Source of the DNA: a virus
DNA: 52,029 bases
Reading direction: 5' to 3' (one strand)
IMG/VR virus record: IMGVR_UViG_3300030116_007634
Location: 1-52,029 of that record
Shown here: positions 11,406 through 24,805 of the stretch, in pieces
How positions within the stretch are numbered: position 1 is the first letter of the stretch
How the letters are laid out: every line of letters begins with the position of its first letter
The notes under the pieces: model-generated
Database searches by the model: none
Told to the model about the DNA's origin: nothing
Seen by the model: only the letters and a program-made list of their open reading frames with translations
Position numbers and translations under genes: made by a program

Positions 11406-11433
11406 GGACCTGAGTACGTCCTTAAACTGCTCA
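11406..11433 (+). promoter_or_regulatory. family P H-type pseudoknot, copy 1
   Basis: Stem 1 is GGAC / GTCC. Its 8-nt loop contains TGAGTA, which pairs with TGCTCA downstream, giving stem 2 of 6 bp. The strand between the two 3' halves is TTAAAC. The ATG of the next gene follows 23 nt later. Both stems differ from the other four copies but stay paired. Confidence 0.65.
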
Positions 11434-11455
11434 CTGACCTATACCATTTCACATC

Positions 11456-11632
11456 ATGTCTCTAATCAAGACCTGGCTACTCGATCAGCAACGCCTCAAC
11501 GATGCTGTCAAAACTGAGTACACCCAAGACCAGCTATTTGTTCTCAACGACATTGCCAACGAGGAAGAACAGCTCATGCAAGAACTCATGTCAGAGGAGG
11601 TGGCAGGCGATGCCGACTACCACCAAGAATGA
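11456..11632 (+). CDS. small acidic hypothetical protein behind a pseudoknot
   Basis: This 58-residue protein begins MSLIKTWLLDQQRLNDAVK and has a Glu-rich C-terminus. It begins 23 nt after a family P pseudoknot. No known family. Amino-acid composition and the well-placed start after the conserved element support it as a gene. Confidence 0.6.
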   Translation: MSLIKTWLLDQQRLNDAVKTEYTQDQLFVLNDIANEEEQLMQELMSEEVAGDADYHQE

Positions 11633-11698
11633 CACACACGATGATGTCATCCTGCACATCATTGTCATCATCTCAATCATCATCACGGAGTTGATCTC

Positions 11699-12052
11699 AT
11701 GCTTCATCCAGAAACCAAACGTATCGCAGAGGAACTCACCGGCTACGTCCCCTTCACCGAAGAGGAGTGCCAAGAGCAGTACCCTGCGGAAGTCAACTAC
11801 GACCCAAACCTCTACAACCCAGAAGACGAAAACACGCACCCGATCACGGGCTGTGTCTTCAAACAAGGGGATGTCCTCCAGTGTTACTGGAAACCAGAAG
11901 AAGTCGAGGACTCCCTCGAAGGATGGTACCCTGTCCCTACCAACGGAGAAATCGAGGAGTGGGCACTCGATTCAACCTGCCTAACACCGGCAGACGATGA
12001 GGTCGAACCTGACCACCCCGATAGTTGGTTGACCATCCTCGGTTGTATTTGA
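11699..12052 (+). CDS. acidic hypothetical protein
   Basis: This 117-residue, strongly acidic protein (MLHPETKRIAEELTGY...) contains several short aromatic strands (VLQCYWKPEEVEDS, GWYPVPTNGEIEEWAL). Its TGA overlaps the ATG of the next gene. Between 11610 and 11698 another frame encodes a hydrophobic stretch that runs into this gene (reported separately). Function unknown; a DNA-mimic-like acidity is notable but not diagnostic. Confidence 0.68.
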   Translation: MLHPETKRIAEELTGYVPFTEEECQEQYPAEVNYDPNLYNPEDENTHPITGCVFKQGDVLQCYWKPEEVEDSLEGWYPVPTNGEIEEWALDSTCLTPADDEVEPDHPDSWLTILGCI

Positions 12053-12243
12053 TGGCACGTCCCAAGACAAACAAGCCCAAGAAGACAGTCTTCAATCCAA
12101 GAAGACGTGGTGCATTTGCAAGACATCTGGCATCACAAATTGATACAGAAGGTAACAACATGGGGTTGATCGAAGTAGAAGCATCAATCCCCCCGGACCC
12201 CCGCAGGGAGAGTACCAAGATATCTTTTAGTTCTTATAGATAA
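12052..12243 (+). CDS. small basic hypothetical protein
   Basis: This 63-residue protein starts MARPKTNKPKKTVFNPRRRG. The first 25 residues are strongly basic and Lys/Arg/Pro-rich; the rest is mixed. The ATG overlaps the TGA of the acidic gene before it, so an acidic and a basic protein are translationally coupled. It may bind nucleic acid or the acidic partner; this is inference. Confidence 0.6.
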   Translation: MARPKTNKPKKTVFNPRRRGAFARHLASQIDTEGNNMGLIEVEASIPPDPRRESTKISFSSYR

Positions 12244-12268
12244 CCCTTCAATCTTTCTTCTTCATCTC

Positions 12269-12547
12269 ATGGATTATCCTGACTACATCATTGAGTATTA
12301 CGAACAGAAAGGTAGGCCTATTCCCAGTGGACCACCAGATCCTGTCTCACATCTACTCCGAGAATTGGACACTGCTGTTTCACTGATGTTATATCACTAC
12401 GATACTAAAAACGGTACTGAAAACAGTACTGAAAACGATATGGAAAAGGCCGTCGAAAAAGCCCGTCGTGCTGTTCTCGATCATCCTGATTCCACATGGA
12501 CGGAAAGCGTCTTGGATTACAGGACTAGACAACTGCATTACAAGTAG
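12269..12547 (+). CDS. small hypothetical protein
   Basis: This 92-residue protein (MDYPDYIIEYYEQKGRPIP...) has an aromatic, acidic N-terminus and a polar low-complexity middle (NGTENSTENDMEKAVEKAR). The first 40 residues resemble short, Tyr/Asp-rich phage proteins. No family is recognised. Confidence 0.66.
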   Translation: MDYPDYIIEYYEQKGRPIPSGPPDPVSHLLRELDTAVSLMLYHYDTKNGTENSTENDMEKAVEKARRAVLDHPDSTWTESVLDYRTRQLHYK

Positions 12548-12555
12548 ATACCTTG

Positions 12556-12584
12556 GGATGTCGGGACTTTTGTCTTCGGCATCC
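12556..12584 (+). other. nested hairpin between two small genes
   Basis: A 7-bp stem GGATGTC / GGCATCC encloses an inner GAC-TTTT-GTC hairpin. It lies 9 nt after one stop and 20 nt before the next ATG. There is no T-tract, so it is not a standard terminator. It may be a processing or stability element. Confidence 0.4.
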
Positions 12585-12604
12585 TTAAGAAAAGCTAAAG
12601 TTCT

Positions 12605-12895
12605 ATGTTGATCATCGGTGAAACCACTTCGGACACCGCATACTCCATCACTATTCCTACACCTGACTTCACCATGCCAAACCAACCGGCTATCCCTGAC
12701 AACATCCCTGAGACCACCAAGCTTCGCATGATGCGTCTCACTGCAAAACTTAAAGAGCAAGCCGATGCCCAGGGCGCTGGGTTCATCGGTGGATTCTTTG
12801 ATCCAAATACAGGAGAGATGTTCGTTATGTCGAACATGGAAAAGGATGATCCAAGGAATGTCCTTCCTGACGCTCTCAATCCCGACAAACAATGA
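12605..12895 (+). CDS. small hypothetical protein
   Basis: This 96-residue protein starts MLIIGETTSDTAYSITIPTP. The second half contains a helix (TTKLRMMRLTAKLKEQAD) followed by GFIGGFFDPNTGEMFVMSN, a beta-hairpin-like motif. Its stop overlaps the next ATG by 4 nt. No family is recognised. Confidence 0.68.
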   Translation: MLIIGETTSDTAYSITIPTPDFTMPNQPAIPDNIPETTKLRMMRLTAKLKEQADAQGAGFIGGFFDPNTGEMFVMSNMEKDDPRNVLPDALNPDKQ

Positions 12896-13089
12896 CCAAA
12901 CGATCTGCATTCAACTTCGACAAAACTGTTGGTGGCTTCAACATCACTGAACGTGGTGTGAAGTCATTCAGCAAATCAATCAAGCTTGGACCATTCCAAT
13001 TCACAATGAATGTCCGTGGGTCTGGTGTCCGTGGTTCCGTTGGGATCCCGGGCACTGGCCTGTCCAAGCGCAACATCAAACTGTTCTAA
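12892..13089 (+). CDS. DUF4236-like small protein
   Basis: This 65-residue protein contains FSKSIKLGPFQFTMNVRG, VRGSVGIPGTGLS and a C-terminal basic strand. The order SIKLGP...N...GxxxSxGxPGTGLS matches the DUF4236 domain, known from many bacteria and phages and of unknown function. The short length is normal for this domain. Translation is coupled to the preceding gene. Confidence 0.6.
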   Translation: MTKRSAFNFDKTVGGFNITERGVKSFSKSIKLGPFQFTMNVRGSGVRGSVGIPGTGLSKRNIKLF

Positions 13090-13097
13090 ATCAACTC

Positions 13098-13373
13098 ATG
13101 CTCAACAAGTTCACACCTGCCGATCCAATGATCGAAGCAACTGTTCAACGCATCGAAACCTACGGTGGCAGCTTTGCTAAACAACTCATGGCTGCATACA
13201 GAACTGCAGACATAGACAACAAGCAACGCATCATCGATGCTTTTGATGACCTATTTGACAAGTATGGTCCCAATGGAATCTTTGGATCAGAAGATGAATC
13301 TATTCATTCATGGATTCGTTCTTCGGCTTATGACATGCTTGCACCTCTGTCCATTCGCAAACAAACCAACTGA
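13098..13373 (+). CDS. small hypothetical protein
   Basis: This 91-residue helical protein (MLNKFTPADPMIEATVQRIE...) is soluble and rich in Ala/Asp, with DAFDDLFDKYGPNGIFG in the middle. It is followed with a 1-nt overlap by the next gene. Function unknown. Confidence 0.7.
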   Translation: MLNKFTPADPMIEATVQRIETYGGSFAKQLMAAYRTADIDNKQRIIDAFDDLFDKYGPNGIFGSEDESIHSWIRSSAYDMLAPLSIRKQTN

Positions 13374-13630
13374 TGGCTGTCATCTCAATTCATGAAACTA
13401 CCTTTGACGATCAACGTGTCTATGTGGAAGCAACGGTTGAAGACATGGTTCTTGTCCATGCACAAACTATGCTTGACCCTGCTGAATACGGCCCGGCATT
13501 ATGCGAAGCAAGCTTTGCAGTTGATCCAGAGGTACCATTCCCCCACGATGGAGTTGCTTTCCTCCGTTACGTTGATGATCTTGACCTTAACTGGAAAGTC
13601 ATTGACACATCCGATCGGTATCTAGACTAA
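13373..13630 (+). CDS. small acidic hypothetical protein
   Basis: This 85-residue protein opens with MAVISIHETTFDDQRVYVEA and is acidic throughout, with a mix of beta and helix. It overlaps the previous gene by one base. A family P pseudoknot begins 7 nt after its stop. Function unknown. Confidence 0.7.
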   Translation: MAVISIHETTFDDQRVYVEATVEDMVLVHAQTMLDPAEYGPALCEASFAVDPEVPFPHDGVAFLRYVDDLDLNWKVIDTSDRYLD

Positions 13631-13636
13631 CTCAAC

Positions 13637-13663
13637 TGTCCTGGGCATGACACTAAACTGCCC
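13637..13663 (+). promoter_or_regulatory. family P H-type pseudoknot, copy 2
   Basis: Stem 1 is TGTC / GACA; the loop CTGGGCAT supplies GGGCA to pair with TGCCC downstream. The linking strand is CTAAAC. The ATG of the PcfJ-like gene is 23 nt further on. Confidence 0.65.
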
Positions 13664-13686
13664 CTTTCTCATACCTACACAACATC

Positions 13687-15477
13687 ATGCATTTCAATCT
13701 CCCAGATCAGCTTGCACTCGAAGTTGCAGGCTATGATCAAACCCGCAAGAAACTTGCAGCTGTCATGGCTGCAGAAGATCGCAAAGCCAAAAAGAAGAAC
13801 ACACATCCCAACGGCAGGCCTTCGAACCTTATCCCATCTGACATCGTCAACGACAGAGCTTGGAACGAAGTTGTTGACAACATCAATTCAAAGTCTGTCA
13901 AACAAGGGAAAGTACAGCTAATCTCCAAGCCTGTCTTTGGTGAAGAACCTAAACCCGTAGCAGTTGTCTACTACCACAAACAACTGTGGGTTGCTGCATG
14001 GATACCACGACGTAAAGATGATGGCTATGTCTATGGCCTTAGCTTTACCTTTAAAGACACAGCTGCAGCACGTAAGCAATGTGATGAACGTTTCATTGCT
14101 AAAGACAGCTATGTCAACAAAGGAATGTTTGATCATGTGCATGGCACACAAGATGACATGCTCCCACGTATCAAAGATGGCCGTACCTTTTGGTATCGCA
14201 AAACTTTATTCTTTACAAAAGATGAGTTTACTGATGGTTACACCGGTAGTTATTGGAGGAAAGTAACCGAAACTCATCGCATCAACAACTACGGTGCTAC
14301 CTACGAGATTTCAAAGCACATTAATAAATGGCAAGCAGAATTACTCAAAGGCATTCCTACCTTTATTGGAGGTAATGATTCTCAGTATTTCAAGCGTTTG
14401 AACCCAGCAAATTGTACCTTTACCAAGATTATGTCAGGGTACTATTCCAGACCTCAGTGGTTGATACACGGTAATGATTATGTTCACGATGTTGATACCA
14501 TTATTGATCTAATACGTAAACGTTGGCGTGCACCTTGGTTGCAAGACGTATGGTCTGCTAAATGGTTTAGATCAATGGTGGCACAAGCCATGAAAGATAC
14601 CTTTGCCATCCATGAAGAAGAAACTGAAAAAGATGAATATGACATCAGACTTCTTGTCAAACCGTATGCAATTCTTTCTCAGTTTATCAATGCAATGTGC
14701 GACGTTAAATCTATTTACCGTGACATGGATCTAAATCTTCTTCATTCCAGGTATGACTGGTTGCATTGCTGTGAATTCCCTGGTTGTCACAGTGATACGG
14801 GTCATCAGTGGATGCGTGACAATCTACCTGTTGAATCGTATCTCAACATGATGCACACGTATTATCAACGTGAACTAGAAGACAGAAGCTACATCAGCAC
14901 AGATCACAAGACAGGCAACAGACATATTTACTTCCATCTTTGGCGTGATACCTATCAGATGCTGACTCAATGCATTGCATCCGGTCGGCTCGACAATATC
15001 AAGCCAAAACGTTGGCGTCTCCAAGAATGGCATGACCATCTCATGGCAGAGACCTGGAAGATCACCAACCCCAACATTGATCTACCACAGAAGTTGTTTC
15101 CAAACCCCATGCGTATTCCTTTCAACGATGTAATCAATCACACACAGTCAGGCACCCTACCTGGCGATGGTTACTTCTCGTTCTTCCAACCGCATGACAC
15201 ACACCAACTGGCTGCGTGGGGCCGTGCCGTACGTAACTGTGTCGGTGGTGGACATGGGTATGCAGAAGGAATCAAGAAGATGAAACATCTCATCATCTTG
15301 TGCATGATCGAGAACAAACCTCGTTACACCATCCAACTAACTGTTGACAACGGTGTGATGAGCGTTGTTCAAATCGCGGATGTAGGTAACAGACGTCTTG
15401 ATGATGTTGAACGTTCCAATGTTGAACATGCATTCAAGGAAGCGTTGCACGTCCGTGAGGAACAACTAAAGTCCTAA
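13687..15477 (+). CDS. PcfJ-like protein
   Basis: This 596-residue protein has a long, Trp/Tyr/His-rich N-terminal part without recognisable catalytic motifs. Its C-terminal region carries AWGRAVRNCVGGGHGYAEGI, then LIILCMIENKPRYTIQLTVD and VVQIADVGNRRLDD. This matches the conserved C-terminal block of PcfJ-family proteins from conjugative elements and phages (xCVGGxxxxYxxxI ... PxxTIEV ... QxxGxxN). The function of PcfJ is not established. It is led by a family P pseudoknot and followed by a family B element and the tRNA gene. Confidence 0.65.
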   Translation: MHFNLPDQLALEVAGYDQTRKKLAAVMAAEDRKAKKKNTHPNGRPSNLIPSDIVNDRAWNEVVDNINSKSVKQGKVQLISKPVFGEEPKPVAVVYYHKQLWVAAWIPRRKDDGYVYGLSFTFKDTAAARKQCDERFIAKDSYVNKGMFDHVHGTQDDMLPRIKDGRTFWYRKTLFFTKDEFTDGYTGSYWRKVTETHRINNYGATYEISKHINKWQAELLKGIPTFIGGNDSQYFKRLNPANCTFTKIMSGYYSRPQWLIHGNDYVHDVDTIIDLIRKRWRAPWLQDVWSAKWFRSMVAQAMKDTFAIHEEETEKDEYDIRLLVKPYAILSQFINAMCDVKSIYRDMDLNLLHSRYDWLHCCEFPGCHSDTGHQWMRDNLPVESYLNMMHTYYQRELEDRSYISTDHKTGNRHIYFHLWRDTYQMLTQCIASGRLDNIKPKRWRLQEWHDHLMAETWKITNPNIDLPQKLFPNPMRIPFNDVINHTQSGTLPGDGYFSFFQPHDTHQLAAWGRAVRNCVGGGHGYAEGIKKMKHLIILCMIENKPRYTIQLTVDNGVMSVVQIADVGNRRLDDVERSNVEHAFKEALHVREEQLKS

Positions 15478-15481
15478 CCAA

Positions 15482-15559
15482 CTAGGCATCAAGCGTGCAG
15501 TACTGGAAACAGCTGCAAGCCTTCTCCTGGGCTGTGGAAACGCTTCATGTAAGTCCTAG
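15482..15559 (+). promoter_or_regulatory. family B structured RNA element, copy 2 (expanded)
   Basis: An outer stem CTAGG / CCTAG and a second stem AAGCG / CGCTT surround the conserved loop GGCATC ... TGTAAGTCC. The interior is larger than in the other copies and holds two further hairpins (TGCAG / CTGCA and AGCC / GGCT). It lies 4 nt after the PcfJ-like gene and 35 nt before the tRNA. Confidence 0.55.
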
Positions 15560-15563
15560 ATCT

Positions 15564-15589
15564 GCCCAGGTAGCTGGTAATGCCTGGGC
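15564..15589 (+). other. 7-bp hairpin upstream of tRNA-Leu
   Basis: A perfect stem GCCCAGG / CCTGGGC with a 12-nt loop is followed by TTTC. It may be a weak terminator of the gene before, or a 5' processing element for the tRNA precursor. Confidence 0.45.
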
Positions 15590-15594
15590 TTTCT

Positions 15595-15683
15595 GAGAGT
15601 GTGGCGGAATTGGTAGACGCAACAGACTTAAAATCTGTCAGTCAGTAATGGCTATGTGGGTTCAAGTCCCACCACTCTCACCA
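15595..15683 (+). tRNA. tRNA-Leu (anticodon TAA), CCA encoded
   Basis: The acceptor stem is GAGAGTG / CACTCTC followed by discriminator A and an encoded CCA. The D-loop holds GGTAGACGC. The anticodon stem-loop ACAGA-CTTAAAA-TCTGT places TAA at 34-36. A long variable arm, typical of class II Leu tRNAs, and the TpsiC arm GTGGG-TTCAAGT-CCCAC are present. Single tRNA genes are common in phages with codon use different from the host. Confidence 0.95.
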
Positions 15684-15703
15684 AACTAAACCTACACAAA
15701 ACA

Positions 15704-16063
15704 ATGCTAGGAGCTTTCAAACAGTTTCTTCCTCAGCCTCATTGCTTCAAGGACGAAGAGACTCGCTACAACGTCGGCCTCACCTGGATCGACGATCGTG
15801 GTCTGACTGACTCACACAACCTCCAGATCCAATACATCCGCAACTGCGAACGTTGGGCACTGGAGAAAGGCAAGCCACAACCAGATGGCTCATGGGTCTT
15901 TATCGAAGACAATGGCTGCGTTCACAGCATCACTGCAGAACGTGCCAAACACTTCATGGAAAAGACCCAAGAGAATGCCAACATCATGGTTGCCATGCTC
16001 GACAAACTTAAAGAGTCAGGAATGCTTGAAGAAGTAGTTGAAACTGAAGCAACCCCTGCCTAA
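15704..16063 (+). CDS. hypothetical protein
   Basis: This 119-residue protein begins MLGAFKQFLPQPHCFKDEET. I chose ATG 15704 because an upstream extension would run into the tRNA gene. It is soluble, with DRGLTDSHNLQIQYIRNCER in the middle and an acidic helical tail. Function unknown. Confidence 0.68.
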   Translation: MLGAFKQFLPQPHCFKDEETRYNVGLTWIDDRGLTDSHNLQIQYIRNCERWALEKGKPQPDGSWVFIEDNGCVHSITAERAKHFMEKTQENANIMVAMLDKLKESGMLEEVVETEATPA

Positions 16064-16085
16064 CCTGGCACGGGGAGAGCATCGA

Positions 16086-16108
16086 CCCCGGTACACCCGG
16101 GGTTTTTT
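16086..16108 (+). terminator. terminator hairpin abutting the next start codon
   Basis: A perfect 6-bp stem CCCCGG / CCGGGG with a TACAC loop is followed by six Ts, one C and the ATG at 16110. It is the second plus-strand example of the hairpin-U-tract-start arrangement. Confidence 0.85.
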
Positions 16109-16109
16109 C

Positions 16110-16430
16110 ATGATTTCACACGAACACTCATTGACAGATCTTCAACTTGTTCATCAAGTTATCGATCTTGTTCCATCCTGGACATGGCCTCTCGTCCGTA
16201 AAAAACTCTCAGAGATGTTTACGGACAACATGTCTAGTATCGTCCTGACCAAACTCACTGGTGACCCAGGGGGGTTTGAGCAGGCTGAAAAAATTCTCAA
16301 CGATTATTACAACAACGAGGCAAACAACTATGAATTAATCGAGGATGCTTTTCGTATCCTTGGCACAACAGTAACCCTGACCGCTTTAGAAAACCTCCAC
16401 CTCGACACCATTCCTCAAACCAATGCCTAG
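16110..16430 (+). CDS. hypothetical protein starting right after a terminator U-tract
   Basis: This 106-residue protein starts MISHEHSLTDLQLVHQVIDL, one base after a T6 tract. The in-frame extension to 16038 runs through the terminator and the previous gene and is rejected. The protein is soluble and helical. Function unknown. Confidence 0.7.
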   Translation: MISHEHSLTDLQLVHQVIDLVPSWTWPLVRKKLSEMFTDNMSSIVLTKLTGDPGGFEQAEKILNDYYNNEANNYELIEDAFRILGTTVTLTALENLHLDTIPQTNA

Positions 16431-16728
16431 TCAAGAAAAATTCGACCCCACTTTCCGTTTCCAAGTGGGTGAACGCGTTGCAGACAAACCCAAGATGACT
16501 CCAACCAACATGGGTCAACGCTTTGGTACCGTCACTGATCTGATTCTTAAAACTCAGAAGACCAGGACTGGTACACGCCGTCGGAAGTTTATTCAAGTCA
16601 AATGGGATCATCTCCAACAACCTGTTGAAATAGATCAGATGCGCCTTTGTGCTGCTGAAAACATTGAAAAGGTTGTTGATGATTACCGTAACACCATGGA
16701 TAATTATTACAGCGATGTAAAGCTGTAA
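16423..16728 (+). CDS. hypothetical protein
   Basis: This 101-residue protein has a basic centre (KTQKTRTGTRRRKFIQVKWD) and an acidic helical tail. The segment FQVGERVADKPKMTP ... GTVTDLI ... IQVKWD fits a small beta-barrel of the SH3/KOW-like type, often seen in phage proteins. It overlaps its neighbours by 8 nt and 1 nt, so it is in the same operon as the cupin gene. Specific function unknown. Confidence 0.7.
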   Translation: MPSQEKFDPTFRFQVGERVADKPKMTPTNMGQRFGTVTDLILKTQKTRTGTRRRKFIQVKWDHLQQPVEIDQMRLCAAENIEKVVDDYRNTMDNYYSDVKL

Positions 16729-17063
16729 TGGAAAAACGTCCTTGGGGATACTTTGAAACCATCAAAACAGGCGAAGGTTTCTTAGTTAAAAAGATTTGGA
16801 TTCATCCGAACCAACGCATCAGTCTGCAACGCCATTGGCATCGCTCTGAGAATTGGGTAATCGTTCAAGGATCCGGTAAACTTACCTGCGGTAACACCGT
16901 TACTCCAGCTGCTCCAGGGACCACTCTCTTTGTGCCTGAGAATGCCGTACATCGTGCAGAAGCAGGCCCAAAGGGACTTGGCATCATCGAGGTTCAACGT
17001 GGCTCTCATCTGTCTGAAACCGACATTGAACGTCTTGATGACGACTACAACCGTGTCGCTTAG
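16728..17063 (+). CDS. mannose-6-phosphate isomerase type cupin
   Basis: This 111-residue single-domain cupin has the C-terminal signature of mannose-1-phosphate guanylyltransferase/phosphomannose isomerase type II. Visible pieces are RPWGYFE, ISLQRHWHRSENWVIVQG, FVPENAVH, IIEVQRGSHLSE and DIERLDDDYNR. The His-x-His metal-binding residues are in RHWHRSE. It would interconvert fructose-6-P and mannose-6-P, feeding GDP-mannose. The guanylyltransferase half is absent. It fits with the GDP-mannose dehydratase gene at 44778, although they are 28 kb apart. Confidence 0.75.
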   Translation: MEKRPWGYFETIKTGEGFLVKKIWIHPNQRISLQRHWHRSENWVIVQGSGKLTCGNTVTPAAPGTTLFVPENAVHRAEAGPKGLGIIEVQRGSHLSETDIERLDDDYNRVA

Positions 17064-17086
17064 CGGCTCAACATTTTCTAAACATC

Positions 17087-17344
17087 ATGGCAGCACGCGT
17101 TAATTATCCTGTACCACCTTGTCCTAAGTGTGGTTGGGAAACAAATCGCGTCAAGAACACCTACTACAGCGAAGACGGTCGCATTGTTCGTCACAGAGAA
17201 TGCGACGACTGTCAGTGGCGGTGGTGGACTTGTCAGTACCCAGAGCACATCATCAACACAGCTAAGTACTGCATTCGCATACCTCGCTGGGGTAACAAAA
17301 GTATGAAGCGTAAGCAGATTACGATTGTTCCTGTTGATCAGTAG
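17087..17344 (+). CDS. small zinc-ribbon protein (NrdR N-domain-like)
   Basis: This 85-residue protein contains CPKCGWETNRVKNTYYSEDG followed by RHRECDDCQWRWWTCQ. The CPxC...HRECxxCxxRWWT arrangement resembles the zinc ribbon of NrdR repressors, without the ATP-cone that real NrdR has. It may bind nucleic acid. It converges with the minus-strand gene ending at 17319 and overlaps it by 26 nt. Confidence 0.65.
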   Translation: MAARVNYPVPPCPKCGWETNRVKNTYYSEDGRIVRHRECDDCQWRWWTCQYPEHIINTAKYCIRIPRWGNKSMKRKQITIVPVDQ

Positions 17345-17585
17345 ATGTTTGAAGGGTCAACATGGTGTTCTCCAACTTTGAGACATCAAGGAGACCCTCG
17401 GCGCTGAACCATGGGGCATTTTCCCAGGAAAATCCCTTACCAAAGGTATTGTCAGGATTAACGATGTACCAATGACAACCCACATCAGGTACATCAACTG
17501 CACATTTGGACCAGTCATTCTCCCATTGCGGTACCTGTACCCACATTACGGATGCCAACACCAACGAGATAAATGACGTGAGCAT
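17319..17585 (-). CDS. small exported or membrane protein
   Basis: This 88-residue protein starts at ATG 17585 with MLTSFISLVLASVMW, a short hydrophobic segment that could be a signal peptide. The remainder is polar, Trp-rich and holds two cysteines (KCAVDVPDVGCHWY). The TGA of the upstream minus gene is 2 nt before this ATG. It is one of three genes running against the general direction. Function unknown. Confidence 0.65.
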   Translation of the reverse strand: MLTSFISLVLASVMWVQVPQWENDWSKCAVDVPDVGCHWYIVNPDNTFGKGFSWENAPWFSAEGLLDVSKLENTMLTLQTSTDQQEQS

Positions 17586-17587
17586 GT

Positions 17588-17740
17588 TCAAACGTGGAGG
17601 TACTGCCAGATCAGCTTAGCTAGATCCATGTACCGAATCTTCCAATCCGCAATCAAACCATAGTGAGGCAACACCTCGCCATCTTCAATGTCTTGTTCAA
17701 TTAGTTCAATGATTTTTTCTTTCAGTTCTTCTTTGTCCAT
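17588..17740 (-). CDS. small hypothetical protein starting right after a terminator U-tract
   Basis: This 50-residue helical protein starts MDKEELKEKIIELIEQDIED. Its ATG directly follows the T7 tract of a terminator hairpin. It ends TGA-AC-ATG with the next minus-strand gene. Composition is clearly protein-like. Function unknown. Confidence 0.62.
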   Translation of the reverse strand: MDKEELKEKIIELIEQDIEDGEVLPHYGLIADWKIRYMDLAKLIWQYLHV

Positions 17741-17765
17741 AAAAAAAGGCCACCCGAAGGCAGCC
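17741..17765 (-). terminator. terminator hairpin abutting a start codon (minus strand)
   Basis: On the minus strand a 7-bp stem GGCTGCC / GGTGGCC (two G-T pairs) with a TTCG tetraloop is followed by seven Ts and immediately the ATG at 17740. It is the fourth case of the hairpin-U-tract-start arrangement and the only clear one on the minus strand. Confidence 0.82.
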
Positions 17766-17786
17766 TATCTAACAGTGTAACAACCG

Positions 17787-17933
17787 TCAAACGATCACTT
17801 CTTTCTTGCTATTATTGCGACGATCGTGATCTTTCTCCGTTTGAGCCCGTTGGACTTTGAGGTTTTGAGTACACAGGTAGCTGGTGAAAGCTTCCTTGCG
17901 CTCGTATGGAACTCCGCGATAGACGAGTTTCAT
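17787..17933 (-). CDS. DUF4278-like small protein
   Basis: This 48-residue protein starts MKLVYRGVPYERKEAFTSYL. The MKLxYRGVxYE opening is the signature of DUF4278, a short domain of unknown function frequent in cyanobacteria. The rest is basic (KDHDRRNNSKKEVIV). This supports a cyanobacterial host. It is divergent from the HTH gene at 18055 and followed by a terminator. Confidence 0.65.
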   Translation of the reverse strand: MKLVYRGVPYERKEAFTSYLCTQNLKVQRAQTEKDHDRRNNSKKEVIV

Positions 17934-17995
17934 TGTGGTTCTCCGCATAAGACTGTCCCCCGTTCCGTGGATCAGTTGGTTGCGCCTCCAAGATA

Positions 17996-18024: not shown

Positions 18025-18054
18025 CTTTACACACTTGTAACAACCGCTACTGCA

Positions 18055-18516
18055 ATGACACCCCAAGCAGCAAAAAAACGCCTGGCTAACGAGAAGGAAT
18101 GGGCAAGCTCCAACACCTATTCCACTGGCCCAGTAAAAACTTTAAAAGAATGTAAGGACCGTTGGAGTATGCAAGAAGTAATGGATGAGCTTAACGTCAG
18201 TCGATACACAATCCACCGAAAGATAAAGGACAAGCTCTTTCCAAAGCCTTTGATGAAAAGTGGACGCAACCTCTACTTCAGGCGAACAGATATAGAACGA
18301 TGGATGGAAGATAATCCTGCTTATGTCAAAAATGAGTACACCCCAAAGACTATGCCTGGTGCCATAGGTGTAGCTTTCACTGTAGAAGAACAGAAAAGAA
18401 TCAAAGAAGCTTCTTCGTTTTTGAATGAAGAGCATTATCAAGGAAATATTTCATTGTTTATTGCAGAAGCAACGATGCATTATGTAGAGAGGATTGAAAG
18501 TAAATATATGGATTGA
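18055..18516 (+). CDS. MerR/AlpA-like helix-turn-helix DNA-binding protein
   Basis: This 153-residue protein starts at ATG 18055; the extension upstream crosses the promoter gap. Residues about 35-80 read WSMQEVMDELNVSRYTIHRK followed by a wing and FRRTDIERWMEDN. This is the winged HTH typical of AlpA/excisionase and MerR-like proteins (WxxxExAxxLxVSxxTIxRxI...F...dIexW). The C-terminal 60 residues are helical. It probably regulates phage promoters, perhaps including the divergent one beside it. Confidence 0.72.
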   Translation: MTPQAAKKRLANEKEWASSNTYSTGPVKTLKECKDRWSMQEVMDELNVSRYTIHRKIKDKLFPKPLMKSGRNLYFRRTDIERWMEDNPAYVKNEYTPKTMPGAIGVAFTVEEQKRIKEASSFLNEEHYQGNISLFIAEATMHYVERIESKYMD

Positions 18517-18519
18517 TTC

Positions 18520-18559
18520 ATGGGCATCAGCGCAGGTGCAGTCGCTGTGTAAGTCCCAT
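18520..18559 (+). promoter_or_regulatory. family B structured RNA element, copy 3
   Basis: The outer stem is ATGGG / CCCAT and the inner stem CAGCG / CGCTG. The internal loop carries the same GGCATC ... TGTAAGTCC as the other copies. It ends 30 nt before the ATG of the Gp88-like gene. Confidence 0.62.
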
Positions 18560-18588
18560 ACATAAGCACAACTTATCAAACTATCTCA

Positions 18589-19338
18589 ATGCAAACCCTC
18601 AAGTTCTCTACCGGTAACGGTAAGCTCCGCAACAGACTAATCTTCTCACTGCCAGCAGGCTATTCATGTCCGCACGCTGGTGTCTGCCGTACCTACGCAG
18701 ACCGTGTAACAGGCAAGATCACTGACATTCCCAACAACAATGGCACTGACGCAAAAGACTTCCGTTGCTTTGCTGCAATGAGTGAAGTGCGGCCCAATGT
18801 CAGAGAAGCACGCTGGCACAACTGGGATCTAATCCGTAAGACCATGTACAGCAATGGCAACCAAGCCATGTTGCTCCGTGATCTGATCGATGTCTCTCTT
18901 ACGGTTACCAAACCTAAGAAACTAATCCGTGTCCATGAGTCTGGTGACTTCTGGACAGAAGAATATATGCGGGCATGGATGCTTGTTGCAAAGCAGCGGC
19001 CTAAGCAAACCTTTTATGCCTACACCAAGTCACTCAACATGTGGCTCAATCTCAAAGACCAAATTCCTAGCAATTTTTATTTGACAGCATCGAAGGGCGG
19101 TAACCTCGATGCAATTATAAATAAAAATCCTGACGTTTTTATTCGCACCTCACAGGTGGTCTATACAGAACAGGAAGCCGCTGACCTTGGTCTAGAGATT
19201 GATCATGACGACAGCCACTGCTTGGGTGACAAACCGTTTGCATTGCTGGTCCATGGCAGCCAACGTGCTAACACCGAAGCTTCCAAAGCATTATCGAAAC
19301 GTAAAAAGGAAGGAGGCTTTGTTGGATACAGCAAGTAG
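18589..19338 (+). CDS. Gp88-like phage protein
   Basis: This 249-residue protein begins MQTLKFSTGNGKLRNRLIFS, then LPAGYSCPHAGVCRTYADRV and a downstream FRCFAAM. A cysteine-rich N-terminal motif followed by a beta-alpha region (IRVHESGDFWTEEYMRAW, TFYAYTKSLNMW) matches the phage gene product 88 family, a protein of uncertain biochemical role in mycobacteriophages and others. A radical-SAM or nuclease role cannot be judged. It is led by a family B element. Confidence 0.65.
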   Translation: MQTLKFSTGNGKLRNRLIFSLPAGYSCPHAGVCRTYADRVTGKITDIPNNNGTDAKDFRCFAAMSEVRPNVREARWHNWDLIRKTMYSNGNQAMLLRDLIDVSLTVTKPKKLIRVHESGDFWTEEYMRAWMLVAKQRPKQTFYAYTKSLNMWLNLKDQIPSNFYLTASKGGNLDAIINKNPDVFIRTSQVVYTEQEAADLGLEIDHDDSHCLGDKPFALLVHGSQRANTEASKALSKRKKEGGFVGYSK

Positions 19339-19364
19339 GTTGCATAACCTACAAGATCTAATAT

Positions 19365-19392
19365 CATCTGTTGGTTAATAAACTGACAGATG
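19365..19392 (+). promoter_or_regulatory. hairpin that sequesters the start codon at 19390
   Basis: A perfect 7-bp stem CATCTGT / ACAGATG with a 14-nt loop. The ATG start of the following gene forms the last three bases of the 3' strand. Folding would hide the start codon, so translation of this gene may be conditional. Confidence 0.5.
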
Positions 19393-19623
19393 AGTTACGT
19401 CATCGCTACCTGGAAGAATGGTAAACCTCAAGGCATCAAACCTTGTATGGAAACCAACAGTTTTCAGCTGATCGATCTAGATTCAACATCTGCCCTTGGG
19501 CGGATTTATTCCCATCCTCACCGTGCTGGTGCTCAACAAATCCTGAACTGGATTAACAAAAATGACGAATATCTCGCAAGTCAAGAACTCAGCATTTGCG
19601 TTGAAGCCCGATTCAGAAAATGA
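19390..19623 (+). CDS. small hypothetical protein overlapping the polymerase gene
   Basis: This 77-residue protein (MSYVIATWKNGKPQGIKPCM...) contains a beta segment and an AxRAGAQQILNWINKN-like helix. It overlaps the start of the DNA polymerase gene by 62 nt, which suggests coupled translation. Its ATG lies in a hairpin. Function unknown. Confidence 0.62.
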   Translation: MSYVIATWKNGKPQGIKPCMETNSFQLIDLDSTSALGRIYSHPHRAGAQQILNWINKNDEYLASQELSICVEARFRK

Positions 19624-21424
19624 AACGTGGTTAATTTTTGACATCGAAACTGATGGTCTTTACGATGAAGTTACTCTTACTCACTGTGTCGTTATCTATG
19701 ACATTAAGAGAGGGCAGACTTTTACTTACGGGCCTGATGCTATTGATAGGGCTCTTGCTCATTTGGCAAGTGCCGATATTCTTATTGGTCACAATGTAAT
19801 CTTTTACGATATTCCCGTACTCGAAAAGCTTTACAACTTCCAACATTCTGCACGGATTCTTGACACACTCATCTGCACACGACTCATCTGGCCCGCAGAG
19901 GTCTTATATGACCTCGACACAGAACAATATCCGGAAGTTCCACCTAAGTTGCGTGGATCCGCTTCACTTAAGGCCTGGGGATGGAGACTGGCCGATCATA
20001 AGATCGACTTCAAAGACTTCTCCGAATTTTCTGAGGAGATGTTGGCGTACTGCATCCAGGACGTTGAGGTCACTAAGAAACTTTGGTTACACATCGGGAA
20101 GCAAAACTACCCGGGATCGTCGCTTAAACTTGAACATGAATTTGCTTATGCAATTAACAAACAAATTAGAGCAGGCGTTCCTTTTGATATTGATGCAGCT
20201 CTTGATCTCGTGGATGTTCTTAGAGCAAAACAAAAAGCTATCGAAGAACATTTAGAAGAGATTTTTCCGCCCATCAAACACAGCGAATGGTTCACGCCAA
20301 AAGTAAACAATGCCAAACGAGGTTATGTTGCAGGACAGCCATTCGAAAAGATCCGATATGAGAAATTCAATCCTGGATCGCGTCAGCAAATTGTTGATCG
20401 ACTTACACGAAAGTACGGATGGAAACCAGAAAAAAAGACTGAAAAAGGAAATCCAATTCTTAATGACGAAGTGTTGGAACGACTCCCATACCCCGAAGCA
20501 AAACCCCTAGCCGAATACATGTTGATCAAGAAACGTCTTGGTCAAATTGCAGATGGAAGTAATGCCTGGCTCAAGTTGGTTGACAATCAAACCAGCAGGA
20601 TGCACGGCAATGTAATTACCAATGGCTGTATCACGGGGCGAGCAGCCCATAAATCTCCCAACCTCGGGCAAGTTCCCGCTGGTTATTCACCTTACGGTCA
20701 TGAATGTCGCAGCTTGTTTCATCCACCTGATGGTTGGGACTTAATCGGTATTGATGCCAAAGCATTGGAGCTACGCTGTTTGGCTGGGTACTTAGCACTG
20801 TGGGATGACGGAGAGTACGCAGCACTGGTTGTGAATCCAGAAGTAGACATTCACACCTATAACCAGGAGCAGTTCGGTGTTGAAACCAGGGACATCAGCA
20901 AGCGTCTTCTGTACGGGATGTTGTACGGCTGTGGTGCAATTAAGGCGGGGACAATCATTGATCCAAATGAGAAGAACCCCGACAAGCTTGCAACCATGGG
21001 TAAGGCAGCCATCAACGGCTTCATGACTGGTGTCCCTGCGCTTAAAAAGTTAAAGAATCAGATTGAAGAAACGATTGGAATTCGTGGGTATTTGATTGGT
21101 CTTGATCGTCGTCCTCTGGTTTGCAGGTCTGCATTCAAAGGACTGAACGTCTTGCTTCAATCAGCTGGTGCAATCCTGATGAAACAGGTTGTCATCAATA
21201 CCCACAAGAACATTGAAAGCCGCTTGGGTTTACCTCACGGACACCAATGGGAACAGATGCTGATGATCCACGATGAAATTCAGTTGGCTTGCTTGCCGCA
21301 GCACACAGAAAAAATTCGTGAAGAAGCCATGAAAGCATTCCCAGAAGCTCAAGAATTTTTTGGATTTAGATGTAAGATTGAGGGCGACTCACGCGTAGGT
21401 CATTCCTGGGCGGAGACGCATTGA
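19562..21424 (+). CDS. DNA polymerase, family A (T7 type) with 3'-5' exonuclease
   Basis: This 620-residue replicative polymerase has exonuclease motifs in the N-terminal third: FDIETDGL, GHNVIFYDIPVL and YCIQDVEVTK. Polymerase motif A is GIDAKALELRCLAGYL, motif B is RDISKRLLYGMLYGCG and motif C is MIHDEIQLA. The arrangement and the DGEYA..DIHT stretch match T7 gp5 (704 aa), which is slightly longer. The catalytic Asp residues of motifs A and C are present, so it should be active. In motif A the usual Ser after DA is Lys. The SSB-like gene lies downstream. Confidence 0.96.
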   Translation: MTNISQVKNSAFALKPDSENETWLIFDIETDGLYDEVTLTHCVVIYDIKRGQTFTYGPDAIDRALAHLASADILIGHNVIFYDIPVLEKLYNFQHSARILDTLICTRLIWPAEVLYDLDTEQYPEVPPKLRGSASLKAWGWRLADHKIDFKDFSEFSEEMLAYCIQDVEVTKKLWLHIGKQNYPGSSLKLEHEFAYAINKQIRAGVPFDIDAALDLVDVLRAKQKAIEEHLEEIFPPIKHSEWFTPKVNNAKRGYVAGQPFEKIRYEKFNPGSRQQIVDRLTRKYGWKPEKKTEKGNPILNDEVLERLPYPEAKPLAEYMLIKKRLGQIADGSNAWLKLVDNQTSRMHGNVITNGCITGRAAHKSPNLGQVPAGYSPYGHECRSLFHPPDGWDLIGIDAKALELRCLAGYLALWDDGEYAALVVNPEVDIHTYNQEQFGVETRDISKRLLYGMLYGCGAIKAGTIIDPNEKNPDKLATMGKAAINGFMTGVPALKKLKNQIEETIGIRGYLIGLDRRPLVCRSAFKGLNVLLQSAGAILMKQVVINTHKNIESRLGLPHGHQWEQMLMIHDEIQLACLPQHTEKIREEAMKAFPEAQEFFGFRCKIEGDSRVGHSWAETH

Positions 21425-21429
21425 TCCCC

Positions 21430-21456
21430 ACGTCCTAGGTAAGACGTAAAACTGCC
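21430..21456 (+). promoter_or_regulatory. family P H-type pseudoknot, copy 3
   Basis: Stem 1 is ACGTC / GACGT; the loop CTAGGTAA provides GGTA, which pairs with TGCC (one G-T). The linking strand is AAAAC. It sits between the polymerase stop and the SSB-like ATG, 20 nt upstream of that ATG. Confidence 0.65.
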
Positions 21457-21476
21457 AACACATTTCCGTACCTACG

Positions 21477-22358
21477 ATGAACTTCGTCACAGTGTGCGCT
21501 CAACTCCGGGAAGATCCCCGCGAGGCTTTCACGGGCGCAACCAATACAGTCATGCGCTGTAAAATCACACTCCCTCCTTATGGGAAGAAAGCTCCCACTG
21601 ATCTTGAGCTGACTATTTATGGTGAGAGGCAGGGCAACCGCTTCCGTGCCATGAAGAAAGGCATGGGTGTCTACATCCATGGTGCCAAGATCCAATACGA
21701 CTTGGAATCCAGGGCGTTCTCATTGCACGGTGGAGTGGTAACTCCTGTCGATGTTGAACAGTTTCCAATCCTGAACAACGTGGTATTGGCGGGTCGGTGT
21801 GTTAAGGACATCAATCCTGAAGACACACGGCAGTGTAAGACCACGCCAAACCACATGATCACAAACCAAACTCTCTCTGTTGTCACCAAGAAGGGAGAGT
21901 CAAACCTGTTCAACTTCTACGCTATCAATGGTTTCGACGATCGCTTCCAGCCTGCGAAGCTAATCGCTGACTACACCAAGAAAGGCACTGGTCTGACAAT
22001 CGAGGCACGCATCGTCACTGATTCGTGGACCGATAAAGAAACCAAAGAGCAACGCACGCTAACCAAGCTGCAGCTCATCAATATGACCTTGGCACCCAAA
22101 GGTATTGCTGATCAAAAGCCTGTCGAATCAAAAGCAAATGTGGCAGGCGGACAGGAGGTGACATCTCTTTGGGGTGGACGTACCGGTGATCCTGAGGAAC
22201 AAGAAGTTCCCAGCTCTCCGCATCAAGCAGCAATTGCACCAGAACCTGCCAGTGATCCTTGGAAGGTACAAGAACCAGTGGGTGCAAGGGGGAATCTTCC
22301 TGATCTCCCTGGTGCCTACGGTCCTCCACCGACCGATGATGAAAACGCTCCATTCTGA
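21477..22358 (+). CDS. two-OB-fold single-stranded-DNA-binding protein
   Basis: This 293-residue protein has two SSB-like beta-barrel halves. The first is residues 1-95 (VCAQLREDPREAF ... MRCKITLP ... GVYIHGAKIQYD). The second is 100-205 (NVVLAGRCVKDIN ... NFYAINGFDD ... GLTIEARIVTDSW). A long Pro/Gly/Glu-rich linker leads to an acidic tip ending DDENAPF, like the DDDIPF tail of bacterial SSB. It directly follows the polymerase, behind a pseudoknot, and its stop overlaps the next start. A replication SSB role is well supported by layout but not by a conserved signature. Confidence 0.72.
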   Translation: MNFVTVCAQLREDPREAFTGATNTVMRCKITLPPYGKKAPTDLELTIYGERQGNRFRAMKKGMGVYIHGAKIQYDLESRAFSLHGGVVTPVDVEQFPILNNVVLAGRCVKDINPEDTRQCKTTPNHMITNQTLSVVTKKGESNLFNFYAINGFDDRFQPAKLIADYTKKGTGLTIEARIVTDSWTDKETKEQRTLTKLQLINMTLAPKGIADQKPVESKANVAGGQEVTSLWGGRTGDPEEQEVPSSPHQAAIAPEPASDPWKVQEPVGARGNLPDLPGAYGPPPTDDENAPF

Positions 22359-22453
22359 TGACAATTGATCAGCTGCAGTTGTTGGTATTGCTTCTACTTC
22401 CGGCAATGCTAATGACAGTGTTATTAATGTTTACATTCGCTGCTGGCGGATAG
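22358..22453 (+). CDS. 31-aa single-pass membrane peptide
   Basis: The frame opens with ATG overlapping the TGA of the SSB-like gene (TGATG). It encodes MTIDQLQLLVLLLLPAMLMT and ends TFAAGG. Almost all of it is one hydrophobic segment. It is too short for automated calling, but translational coupling and composition support it. A tiny membrane protein; role unknown. Confidence 0.5.
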   Translation: MTIDQLQLLVLLLLPAMLMTVLLMFTFAAGG

Positions 22454-22462
22454 AATTAAAAT

Positions 22463-22489
22463 CGTCCTGGGCATGACGTAAAACTGCCC
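22463..22489 (+). promoter_or_regulatory. family P H-type pseudoknot, copy 4
   Basis: Stem 1 CGTC / GACG, loop CTGGGCAT with GGGCA pairing to TGCCC, linking strand TAAAAC. The ATG at 22502 is only 12 nt further, the shortest spacing among the five copies, so the fold could directly hide the ribosome-binding region. Confidence 0.68.
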
Positions 22490-22501
22490 GCTTTTCATTT
22501 C

Positions 22502-23509
22502 ATGACTACGAACCTCACTGTGAAAAAAGCCTCATCCATCACCAAGCGCAGCCTTGACTCCTTCCGGATGTTCCAATCCAAAGAGTTTGTCTCTGGCTAC
22601 CAGAACCTCGTTACGATTCAACCTCTGAACAAATCCAAGACCCGTGGTTGGTTCATCCGCAAGTCCGATCTGGACACCTGCAACTGGACTGCCAAGGAAA
22701 CTGACTTCGATAAAGGCTCGGTCCTTTGGGATTACAAGCAAACCTTTGGCTCGGCACCATACACCTCCATCGAAGAAGGACTGAACTTTATTATCCCTCG
22801 GCTGCAGATCCTGCTGCGTTCACCACTGATGGTTGAAGAAACCAGTGGCATGCGTCAAACCATCGGCACCTTCGAGGATCCTCAAGCCAAAGAACTCTTT
22901 GAAGCAGACAAGATTGCATCTGATGAGGCGAATGCCAAAGGTGAGATGTACAAGCGTAAGTATGCCGTTCGCACCAAGTACCTGGTCAACATCCTGACCA
23001 AGGACAATGTGCCCGCTCATAAGGTTCCCATCGTCCTTACCCTCAAAGGTTTGAACGGCACGGACATGGCCGAAAAGGTCAAGATGTACGAGAAAGAAAT
23101 GTCCAAGTGTCTGTGCAAAGCACTGGACGCTGAAGTGCCCTTGGCTTTCAATGAAAAGTTCTTTGCCACCACGGTCTTCATCCCAACTCTGGTGAACGAC
23201 ATGCGTGGTGCAAACAACGTCGAGATCTGCTGTATTGAAGGGTTTGACATCCCTGATTACAGCGATCAAGACACAGCCATTGCATCACTAGACAACCTCA
23301 CTATCCCGGATGACAACCGGGAGAGTGCTTGGAAGGTCCAGGAGCTGTTTGAAGATTACATCAACCAGCATGCCAAGCAGGACGCTGAAAAGCTCGGTGG
23401 CAGCTACGGCATGAAGGACGGTCTAATGATCGCCCCTGCCAATCGCACTATCGATGCACCTGCCCTGCCTGCTCAGCAGAATCCTACTGGCGAAGACGCC
23501 TCACTTTGA
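22502..23509 (+). CDS. hypothetical protein, replication region (DUF5895-like?)
   Basis: This 335-residue soluble protein has no motif I can assign with confidence. Its layout (SGYQNLVTIQPLNK... RGWFIRKSDLD... a central KYLVNILTKDNVPAHKVPIVLTLKG, and an acidic C-terminal tail) recalls DUF5895-type proteins of cyanobacteria and their phages. That is from memory and should be treated as tentative. It lies directly behind the SSB-like gene, under its own pseudoknot, so a DNA-replication or recombination role is likely. Confidence 0.68.
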   Translation: MTTNLTVKKASSITKRSLDSFRMFQSKEFVSGYQNLVTIQPLNKSKTRGWFIRKSDLDTCNWTAKETDFDKGSVLWDYKQTFGSAPYTSIEEGLNFIIPRLQILLRSPLMVEETSGMRQTIGTFEDPQAKELFEADKIASDEANAKGEMYKRKYAVRTKYLVNILTKDNVPAHKVPIVLTLKGLNGTDMAEKVKMYEKEMSKCLCKALDAEVPLAFNEKFFATTVFIPTLVNDMRGANNVEICCIEGFDIPDYSDQDTAIASLDNLTIPDDNRESAWKVQELFEDYINQHAKQDAEKLGGSYGMKDGLMIAPANRTIDAPALPAQQNPTGEDASL

Positions 23510-23761
23510 AGTAATATCTGGGTTGGACACGTCCTGCTCATCGACAGAAACATTCTGGAAGATGAACATGTCTTGGATCAACCCACGAATTACACCTTGT
23601 CTTGTGGTGGCGATCGTGGCTAACATGGTCGCCACTTCTTTCAATGTGGAGGTTGATTCACAATCATCTACGAATCGCTTAATCTTTTCCAGCCAAAACT
23701 TATCGTCCAACGTTGGTTCAATCTGGAATTGACTTAACGAAACGTACTTGATGTTGTCCAT
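23501..23761 (-). CDS. small antisense helical protein
   Basis: This 86-residue protein (MDNIKYVSLSQFQIEPTLDD...) has a central helical region KFWLEKIKRFVDDCESTSTL followed by KEVATMLATIATTRQGVIRG, with good protein composition. It converges with the gene ending at 23509 (9-nt overlap) and is divergent from 23819. No family is recognised. It is an isolated minus-strand gene in a plus-strand region. Confidence 0.62.
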   Translation of the reverse strand: MDNIKYVSLSQFQIEPTLDDKFWLEKIKRFVDDCESTSTLKEVATMLATIATTRQGVIRGLIQDMFIFQNVSVDEQDVSNPDITSK

Positions 23762-23818
23762 GTGATATCCAAGATTGTTTGGATGTTACATACATCTTAC
23801 CAAACTCAAACTATTCAA

Positions 23819-24760
23819 ATGGAAACCAAAACCAAACTAAATGAGGCACAGTCTCTCATCTATTGTCGTTCTAATTTACGCCGAGCATTTGATGACTTTG
23901 ATGACACTGACATTGCGGGCATCAGTCTTGTTGGCGACAACGTTTGCATCACTCGCACTGACGGCACCAGCCAAGAGTTTCCCAGGGAAAAGGTTTGCGC
24001 CGCATTTACGAAGTTCACAAACAGACTACCGAACTTCTTTGCGTACCTTGGACCTAATTATCGTGGACCCAGTGCATGGCGGGACAACGGTTATGTCCTG
24101 TTCAAAGGCTGGTCATACATACATGCATTAGGCGAACGACTCCATCCCAGTGCTCGTTTTCAAGCACGGTTTGCTGATCAGCTCATCCATTTCGATACGA
24201 AAGATTCTTTACTCCCTGTACTCCAAAATGAACAGTTCGACATTGGGTATCTCATTGCACCGGACGGGTTTCACATTAAACCTCGGCTCCTTGACCTGGA
24301 TGGTGAGTTTGACGAAGAACAGGAAGAGCAAGCTAGTTTTGGCGAACCTTACTGCTCTTGTGGGTCCTTTCAGCGTCAGTTCAATCATCTACAAGCGTTC
24401 AAGGAAGAGATCCCACACTTCAAACCACGTTGCAAACACCTGAGCTGGGTAGAGAAGTACCGCGAGTTCATCAGCAAGCGGTCTCAGATTCGGATTGAAT
24501 GCAACGACGTACCAGAAAAGTGTGTTGCCTGGTGGTACGCACCGCCTGAAGACGGCAATACAAAGGGACGCATGACTCTTATCCATACCAAGTCCGGTGT
24601 AAATGCACCGCTCAGTCACTGGCGGCACTACCGCAAAGGCGAAACTTTTACAGAAGATGACAGTTGGGAACTCTTCGACAACATGCTCGAAGCAGGCTAT
24701 GTCCCATATCCCGGTGACAGCCTGCAACAGCTCAAGGGCATCTGGAAGAAAGGGGGTTGA
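23819..24760 (+). CDS. hypothetical protein with SWIM-like zinc motif
   Basis: This is a 313-residue protein. I use ATG 23819 (METKTKLNEAQ) over an in-frame GTG at 23762 that overlaps the promoter of the antisense gene. Residues about 186-216 carry PYCSCGSFQRQFNHLQAF followed by FKPRCKHLSW. This is a C-x-C ... C-x-H arrangement as in SWIM zinc fingers, although the spacing between the pairs is long. SWIM motifs mediate DNA or protein binding. The rest is unrecognised. Confidence 0.65.
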   Translation: METKTKLNEAQSLIYCRSNLRRAFDDFDDTDIAGISLVGDNVCITRTDGTSQEFPREKVCAAFTKFTNRLPNFFAYLGPNYRGPSAWRDNGYVLFKGWSYIHALGERLHPSARFQARFADQLIHFDTKDSLLPVLQNEQFDIGYLIAPDGFHIKPRLLDLDGEFDEEQEEQASFGEPYCSCGSFQRQFNHLQAFKEEIPHFKPRCKHLSWVEKYREFISKRSQIRIECNDVPEKCVAWWYAPPEDGNTKGRMTLIHTKSGVNAPLSHWRHYRKGETFTEDDSWELFDNMLEAGYVPYPGDSLQQLKGIWKKGG

Positions 24761-24778
24761 CACACCCCCTTAGACTCC

Positions 24779-24805
24779 AGGTCCTGGTCACGACCTAAAA
24801 CTGAC
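24779..24805 (+). promoter_or_regulatory. family P H-type pseudoknot, copy 5
   Basis: Stem 1 is AGGTC / GACCT, swapped relative to CGTC / GACG of copies 3 and 4. The loop CTGGTCAC supplies GTCA, which pairs with TGAC, again swapped relative to GGGCA / TGCCC. The linking strand is AAAAC. The ATG at 24828 follows 22 nt later. Both stems covary, which makes this copy the most informative. Confidence 0.7.

Follow-up and report, generated by a model that had tools for sequence, protein, structure and literature searches.

Pseudoknots and genes at the locus

The DNA considered here, called the window, is a virus record of 52,029 bases from IMG/VR (IMGVR_UViG_3300030116_007634). Five short H-type pseudoknots, which a preliminary description had placed between successive genes on this stretch, were all found at their positions when the sequence was checked. 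Each element is 27 nucleotides (nt) long and they share a common form, in which stem 1 of 4 base pairs (bp) is followed by loop 1 (CT), the 5' strand of stem 2 (4-5 bp), a 1-nt junction, the 3' strand of stem 1, loop 3 (nnAAAC) and the 3' strand of stem 2. The A-rich third strand noticed earlier is supported, and every copy lies between a stop codon and a start codon as had been described. The copies are as follows, with E values from covariance model R1 and spacings given from the stop codon to the knot and from the knot to the ATG.

11406..11432, plus strand: copy 1; stem 1 11406-11409/11418-11421 (GGAC/GTCC), loop 1 11410-11411, stem 2 11412-11416/11428-11432 (GAGTA/TGCTC, including one G-U), loop 3 11422-11427; 5 nt behind the stop of open reading frame (ORF) 11218-11400 and 23 nt before ATG 11456; E=3.1e-7
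13637..13663, plus strand: copy 2; stem 1 13637-13640/13649-13652, stem 2 13643-13647/13659-13663; 6 nt behind the stop of ORF 13373-13630 and 23 nt before ATG 13687 of a 596-aa PcfJ-like protein; E=2.8e-7
21430..21456, plus strand: copy 3; stem 1 21430-21434/21443-21447, stem 2 21438-21441/21453-21456 (4 bp, the fifth position being A-A); 5 nt behind the stop of the DNA polymerase A gene 19562-21424 and 20 nt before ATG 21477 of a single-stranded DNA-binding protein (SSB); E=9e-7
22463..22489, plus strand: copy 4; stem 1 22463-22466/22475-22478, stem 2 22469-22473/22485-22489; 9 nt behind TAG 22451-22453 and 12 nt before ATG 22502 of a DUF5895 protein; E=3.8e-8
24779..24805, plus strand: copy 5; stem 1 24779-24783/24792-24796, stem 2 24787-24790/24802-24805 (4 bp); 18 nt behind TGA 24758-24760 and 22 nt before ATG 24828 of a 39-aa membrane-like peptide; E=1.1e-4

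The protein behind copy 3 was assigned by its Pfam match (SSB, 6.4e-12), and the PcfJ match of the protein behind copy 2 is under the Pfam cut-off. A search of 50,697 phage records gave one relative of the DUF5895 protein, which belongs to Synechococcus phage S-EIV1 and is 71% identical. The small plus-strand ORF behind copy 5 (24828-24947, MFETILATALPILRDLLLTAAAGLLAYAMNRIQSHVTSF) has relatives in many IMG/VR contigs, where they likewise come after the knot.

Several scans set these copies apart from their background. A pattern test of the window gave 4 matches against 0.07 expected. In a structure-plus-consensus scan the five copies scored 20.0-23.5, the rest of the window reached at most 14.0, and 80 shuffled strands all stayed below 19. 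A loose geometric scanner was unspecific in 180-kb genomes, where real counts were about 3-8 times the shuffled counts at score 18, with top matches standing clear. Nested folding is unable to display the knot. Covariance model R1, in which only stem 1 is encoded as structure, recovered all five copies (E 3.8e-8 to 1.1e-4), each of them a member of its training set, and gave 72 matches at E<=1 across 20 sources. Chance occurrence was rejected.

Covariation of both stems

It had been argued that the stems of the five copies change in step. Compensating changes are indeed present in both stems, but five copies alone are insufficient to prove a fold, and relatives were therefore sampled without selection for pairing. 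IMG/VR was searched with two patterns that leave stem bases free, which returned at least 119 and at least 120 stretches; the family size is thus a lower bound, and the contigs are partly redundant. Among the matches listed from the first search, the middle pair of stem 2, with both bases free, was Watson-Crick in 61 of 62 de-duplicated sites and G-U in the remaining one, and all four pair types occurred. In the second, stem 1 was left free at its three outer pairs: among the 83 distinct sites listed, the inner pair was Watson-Crick in 83 and the middle pair in 81, all three pairs formed in 67 as against 10.4 after shuffling, and at least 30 different stem-1 strands were present.

The same picture was obtained at orthologous junctions, where 104 distinct segments were picked on the letters of the 3' strand of stem 1 and of loop 3 only. 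The complete pseudoknot is kept in 87 of them, as against about 35 when the 5' halves are swapped, so that broken pairs in homologues are not the rule. In register, stems 1 and 2 are 87% and 89% paired, values that fall to 56% and 45% or less on sliding, and the exceptions are mostly geometry variants or an A-C in stem 2. At the junction of copy 3, the knot is retained in most of 56 distinct relatives, and it also occurs at the junction of copy 5 in many IMG/VR relatives. Pairing was in part a selection criterion for alignment A2; in it, 97.8% of the cells pair compared with 76.8% after shuffling, and covariation is 0.651 against 0.237 shuffled and at most 0.155 slid. The loop bases C6, C7, A13, G15 and AAACT are nearly invariant.

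The element is a conserved RNA fold, as the preliminary description held, and it is read on the coding strand. A promoter or DNA site was rejected, since covariation of both stems together with coding orientation is not expected of one.

Placement behind stop codons and tRNAs

The S-EIV1-like phages provided 73 loci with 182 copies, every one of them on the coding strand. The commonest distance from stop codon to knot is 5 nt (58 copies), and the distance from knot to ATG has a median of 21 nt (interquartile range 20-23), with a mode of 21 for SSB and DUF5895. At the gp88 junction this distance is often 34-36 nt because a second hairpin has been added. The layout in this cyanophage group is hence a stop codon, 5 nt, the pseudoknot, about 21 nt and an ATG.

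The leaders between knot and start are unstructured and G-poor, and a Shine-Dalgarno sequence, looked for in the five window leaders, was absent from all of them. Such leaders, together with the tight 20-23 nt spacing ahead of SSB, DUF5895 and the small gene, could point to a translation-initiation element, a knot at about -21 keeping the start region single-stranded or positioning the 30S subunit or S1. There is a precedent in tisB, whose 5' pseudoknot is reported to be required for standby translation (PMC7708055). Against this, the ATG distance spreads in the wide IMG/VR sample (median 36, interquartile range 21-117, among the 90 de-duplicated copies listed), and many copies stand ahead of tRNAs, terminators or convergent genes, which makes a role in initiation unlikely.

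The upstream side behaves differently. For 40 of the same 90 copies, the knot begins 4-7 nt behind the end of an ORF that has 60 codons or more, as against 0.8% at displaced positions, the stop calls being mechanical. Two independent IMG/VR samples both have their peak at a distance of 5-7 nt (5-6 nt in the second), and an extra hairpin ahead of the knot lengthens the distance accordingly. All three stop codons occur, with 42 TAA, 19 TGA and 11 TAG in the first sample, among the matches listed.

A knot this close behind a stop codon would stand at the ribosome entry channel and might stimulate readthrough or frameshifting. Luteovirus-type minimal frameshift pseudoknots are about 27 nt long with a 2-nt loop 1 and a 6-nt A-rich loop 3, and the fold here resembles these smallest of the viral frameshift knots. 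A spacer of 5-9 nt, as seen here, also agrees with that of frameshift stimulators (PMC5009743). Nevertheless, a slippery site or extended frame is not a common feature of the element, readthrough at copies 3 and 4 would reach another stop within a few codons, the use of all three stop codons does not favour recoding, and a reading frame is lacking altogether where the knot lies between tRNAs. A readthrough or frameshift signal was accordingly rejected as very improbable.

The knot has no single kind of 3' neighbour. It may be a start codon, a tRNA gene beginning after 3 nt (tRNA-Asn, tRNA-Lys and tRNA-Thr), a terminator (for instance at loci L067 and L144), a convergent ORF placed back to back (L090), or the next tRNA of an array, the division into convergent and same-strand classes being crude. 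In Synechococcus phage S-CRM01, the tRNA-Ser-Met gap (34 nt) and the Met-Leu gap (32 nt) consist almost wholly of the knot, and other tRNA gaps hold plain hairpins straight after the tRNA end. Throughout 127.5-150 kb of this genome (L235-L236), most tRNA 3' ends run through TT or TTT directly into a hairpin or pseudoknot. The permuted tmRNA of crAss phage cr7_1 contains a knot within its intervening segment (L150 998-1024), separated by 4 nt from the tRNA-like 5' half that comes next; a tmRNA fragment was rejected as an identity for this copy, which is outside the tRNA-like part.

Measured from its 5' side, the knot follows a stop codon after about 5 nt, or a tRNA 3' end after about 2 nt. The position of the element is tied to this upstream feature and not to the downstream start.

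The phages that carry the knot infect very different hosts, and bacterial genomes gave 29 matches. Many of these come after one of two kinds of ORF, a short one that ends in AHCxEGC and a Saccharibacteria one that ends in RPVSYPGL. The former, a conserved ORF of about 16-24 aa (MKRFMxPRxAHCxEGC), lies directly 5' of the knot at L145 (3359-3412), L129, L131, L121, L141 and others, in Peptococcaceae, Omnitrophota, Neomarinimicrobiota and others. The Saccharibacteria-type ORF (L136, L143, L122, L133) ends in RPVSYPGL or RLVSYPGL with the knot 5-9 nt later, and these loci are perhaps phage or prophage DNA. NCBIfam holds no family for the short peptides preceding the knot in bacteria. Tandem pairs of the knot were confined to the bacterial loci L132 and L141, in both of which they come after the short MKRFMxPRxAHCxEGC-type ORF.

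Comparison with known RNAs

No family of Rfam 15 matched the window copies, either over the whole window at gathering score or with copy 4 at E<=10, in line with the earlier suggestion of a new phage RNA. The preQ1-I model (RF00522) gave no match at the same two settings, which agrees with the statement that the sequence is not of that class. The likeness to preQ1-I lies in the small H-type knot with its A-rich third strand; the differences are a sequence class unmatched in the Rfam scan and the lack of a downstream regulatory layout. The preliminary description had pointed to a riboswitch-like geometry and to a regulator that may hide the ribosome-binding site, and a metabolite riboswitch of a new class would fit the preQ1-I-like geometry and conserved loops. 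However, the downstream genes (SSB, DUF5895, PcfJ-like and others) have no common function and are not queuosine genes, there is neither an expression platform nor a Shine-Dalgarno sequence to hide, and the knot ends 12-23 nt before the start, with often no gene downstream elsewhere. Its position is moreover fixed by the upstream gene and several copies occur per genome. A riboswitch is scarcely credible on these grounds, and a role in hiding the ribosome-binding site is unsupported.

The nearest Rfam family is GP20-b RNA (RF03003), which reached 20.1 bits against a cut-off of 36.2 on the bacterial copy L145. The alignment of this weak match would allow the 5' half of GP20-b to form a knot of the same kind (GuC/GgC, ccgca/ugcgg, loop gUAAAAg), whereas GP20-b has an extra 3' part and leaves the window copies unmatched. 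It had no match in the window and none above cut-off in six knot-carrying phage genomes, and a scan of IMG/VR with its consensus pattern yielded no GP20-b copies for comparison.

Two pseudoknots near SSB genes were also compared. The STAXI motif (RF01728) lies, like some copies here, near SSB and other DNA-handling genes (PMC2864571), but its knot is repeated two to three times with UUCG loops in Enterobacteriales, while the copies in the window and in phages are single, without UUCG and without an Rfam match. In phages T4 and T2, an H-type knot stands in the mRNA upstream of the SSB gene, gene 32, and is bound by gp32 in T4 (PMC3014915). The T4 knot, found 67 nt upstream and accompanied by UUAA repeats, acts for a single gene, whereas the present one is found with many genes and tRNAs.

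By analogy with gp32, the knot might be an operator through which a phage protein represses its own synthesis, SSB then binding copy 3 and others. Copy 3 does precede the SSB gene, and the copies cluster round replication genes. On the other hand, the other four window copies precede unrelated genes, the same knot stands before tRNAs and within tRNA arrays where there is no gene, and its position tracks the stop codon and not the start; an operator is thus improbable. A ToxI-like type III antitoxin was rejected as well, the window having no repeats and the five neighbours being unrelated, in an assessment made without a dedicated PADLOC search.

Exchange with other structures at the same junctions

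A second element occupies two further gene boundaries of the window, and both copies carry the conserved TGTAAGTCC strand.

15482..15559, plus strand: second element, 4 nt after the stop of ORF 13687-15477; outer stem CTAGG/CCTAG, internal-loop strand TGTAAGT; predicted fold -26.6 kcal/mol with z -1.4, a weak statistic
18520..18559, plus strand: second element, other copy, 3 nt after TGA 18514-18516 and before the gp88-like gene 18589; outer stem ATGGG/CCCAT

In many relatives, the pseudoknot stands at the 18520..18559 junction in place of the second element. In the same way, the TGTAAGTCC element replaces the knot at the gp88 and DUF5895 junctions in some relatives (L155, L156 and L213). Window gaps of similar size often hold a hairpin or other structure starting 2-6 nt behind the stop, according to single minimum-free-energy folds that are weak evidence alone.

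This exchange bears on the possibility that the knot is a recognition or cleavage signal for one phage or host nuclease or processing protein, marking cuts between RNA units. The near-invariant loop bases (C-CU, A and AAACU) are what such a signal might need, and the knot adjoins RNase P sites and occurs in tRNA arrays. Yet unrelated structures substitute for it at the same junctions and it is found in phages of very different hosts, so that a signal for a single protein is decidedly unlikely.

A proposed boundary element of phage transcripts

The observed fold, orientation, spacing and exchange with other structures lead us to favour, tentatively, a boundary element of polycistronic phage transcripts, which would act as an exonuclease block and insulator and not as a ligand sensor. 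Free-position covariation, stop spacing, coding strand, tRNA and terminator contexts and exchange with other structures count for it, and the spread of contexts weighs most strongly against an SSB operator, recoding or a riboswitch.

A ribosome covers a defined footprint, and the distances observed match its front edge when it sits on the stop codon and its rear edge when it sits on the next start. The stop-side and start-side distances would then be the edges of the terminating and initiating ribosomes, and the knot need therefore not be unfolded by either. It could stay folded with both ribosomes bound and fill the sole naked stretch between two cistrons. There, the compact fold and A-rich third strand would block 3'-to-5' exonucleases and would deny endonucleases single-stranded landing sites. 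Downstream, the RNA might be cut by RNase E in the unstructured leader or by RNase P where a tRNA begins after 3 nt, and the upstream message would afterwards terminate in the knot and be protected.

As a kind, such protectors have precedents. The galE hairpin blocks exonucleases and sets an mRNA 3' end (PMC11925234), and the small pseudoknots evopreQ1 and mpknot are put on the 3' ends of pegRNAs as protection against exonucleases (PMC13042712). These resemble the element as stable structures protecting an RNA 3' end; galE is however a plain hairpin and the pegRNA knots are engineered. The placement of the knot is compatible with a 3' exonuclease-blocking element, whose protective function here we infer.

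Four observations weigh against a boundary shield. About half of the broader set has no ORF stop at 4-7 nt; some of these copies have an intervening hairpin and others no recognised ORF. Some copies lie immediately 5' of an intrinsic terminator, where a second block seems redundant. In several bacterial genomes, the peptide reading frame extends into the knot. Finally, the near-invariant loop bases are perhaps needless for a purely physical block, although triplex contacts might explain them.

A broader proposal, which we hold possible with more reserve, is that this is a general phage 'punctuation' RNA: one ultra-compact knot family, set between ribosome footprints and at tRNAs in phages of unrelated hosts and in some bacteria, which would seal transcript boundaries against host or defence ribonucleases.

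A literature search found no description of the element, its coverage of subscription papers being limited and a prior report thus possible. The knot is apparently a widespread, undescribed phage RNA family; it appears new as a sequence family, and has precedents as a kind, namely the small cis-acting pseudoknot and the end protector. With natural covariation in well over two hundred viral DNA stretches, it seems to be a new RNA family that is invisible to annotation pipelines. Its placement between ribosome footprints and at tRNA ends offers a handle on how phage polycistronic messages and tRNA arrays keep their integrity during RNA degradation in infected cells. It also offers naturally occurring variants for the protection of RNA 3' ends, currently achieved with borrowed knots such as evopreQ1.

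Further structures in the window

A third element, with the form ctgatccgt..aagcgggt-hairpin-gcaaac.., lies twice on the plus strand of the window (8372-8450 and 8665-8740), directly behind stop codons. It had no Rfam match. It also occurs twice in S-EIV1 (L240 3486 and 3780, minus strand), again directly behind stop codons. A tRNA-Leu (TAA) gene is found at 15595-15683 on the plus strand, with a GCCCAGG..CCTGGGC hairpin at most 5 nt upstream. On the minus strand, 17952-18008 matches the Glutamine-II riboswitch aptamer with 47.5 bits against a gathering score of 33, and this match overlaps a plus-strand ORF.

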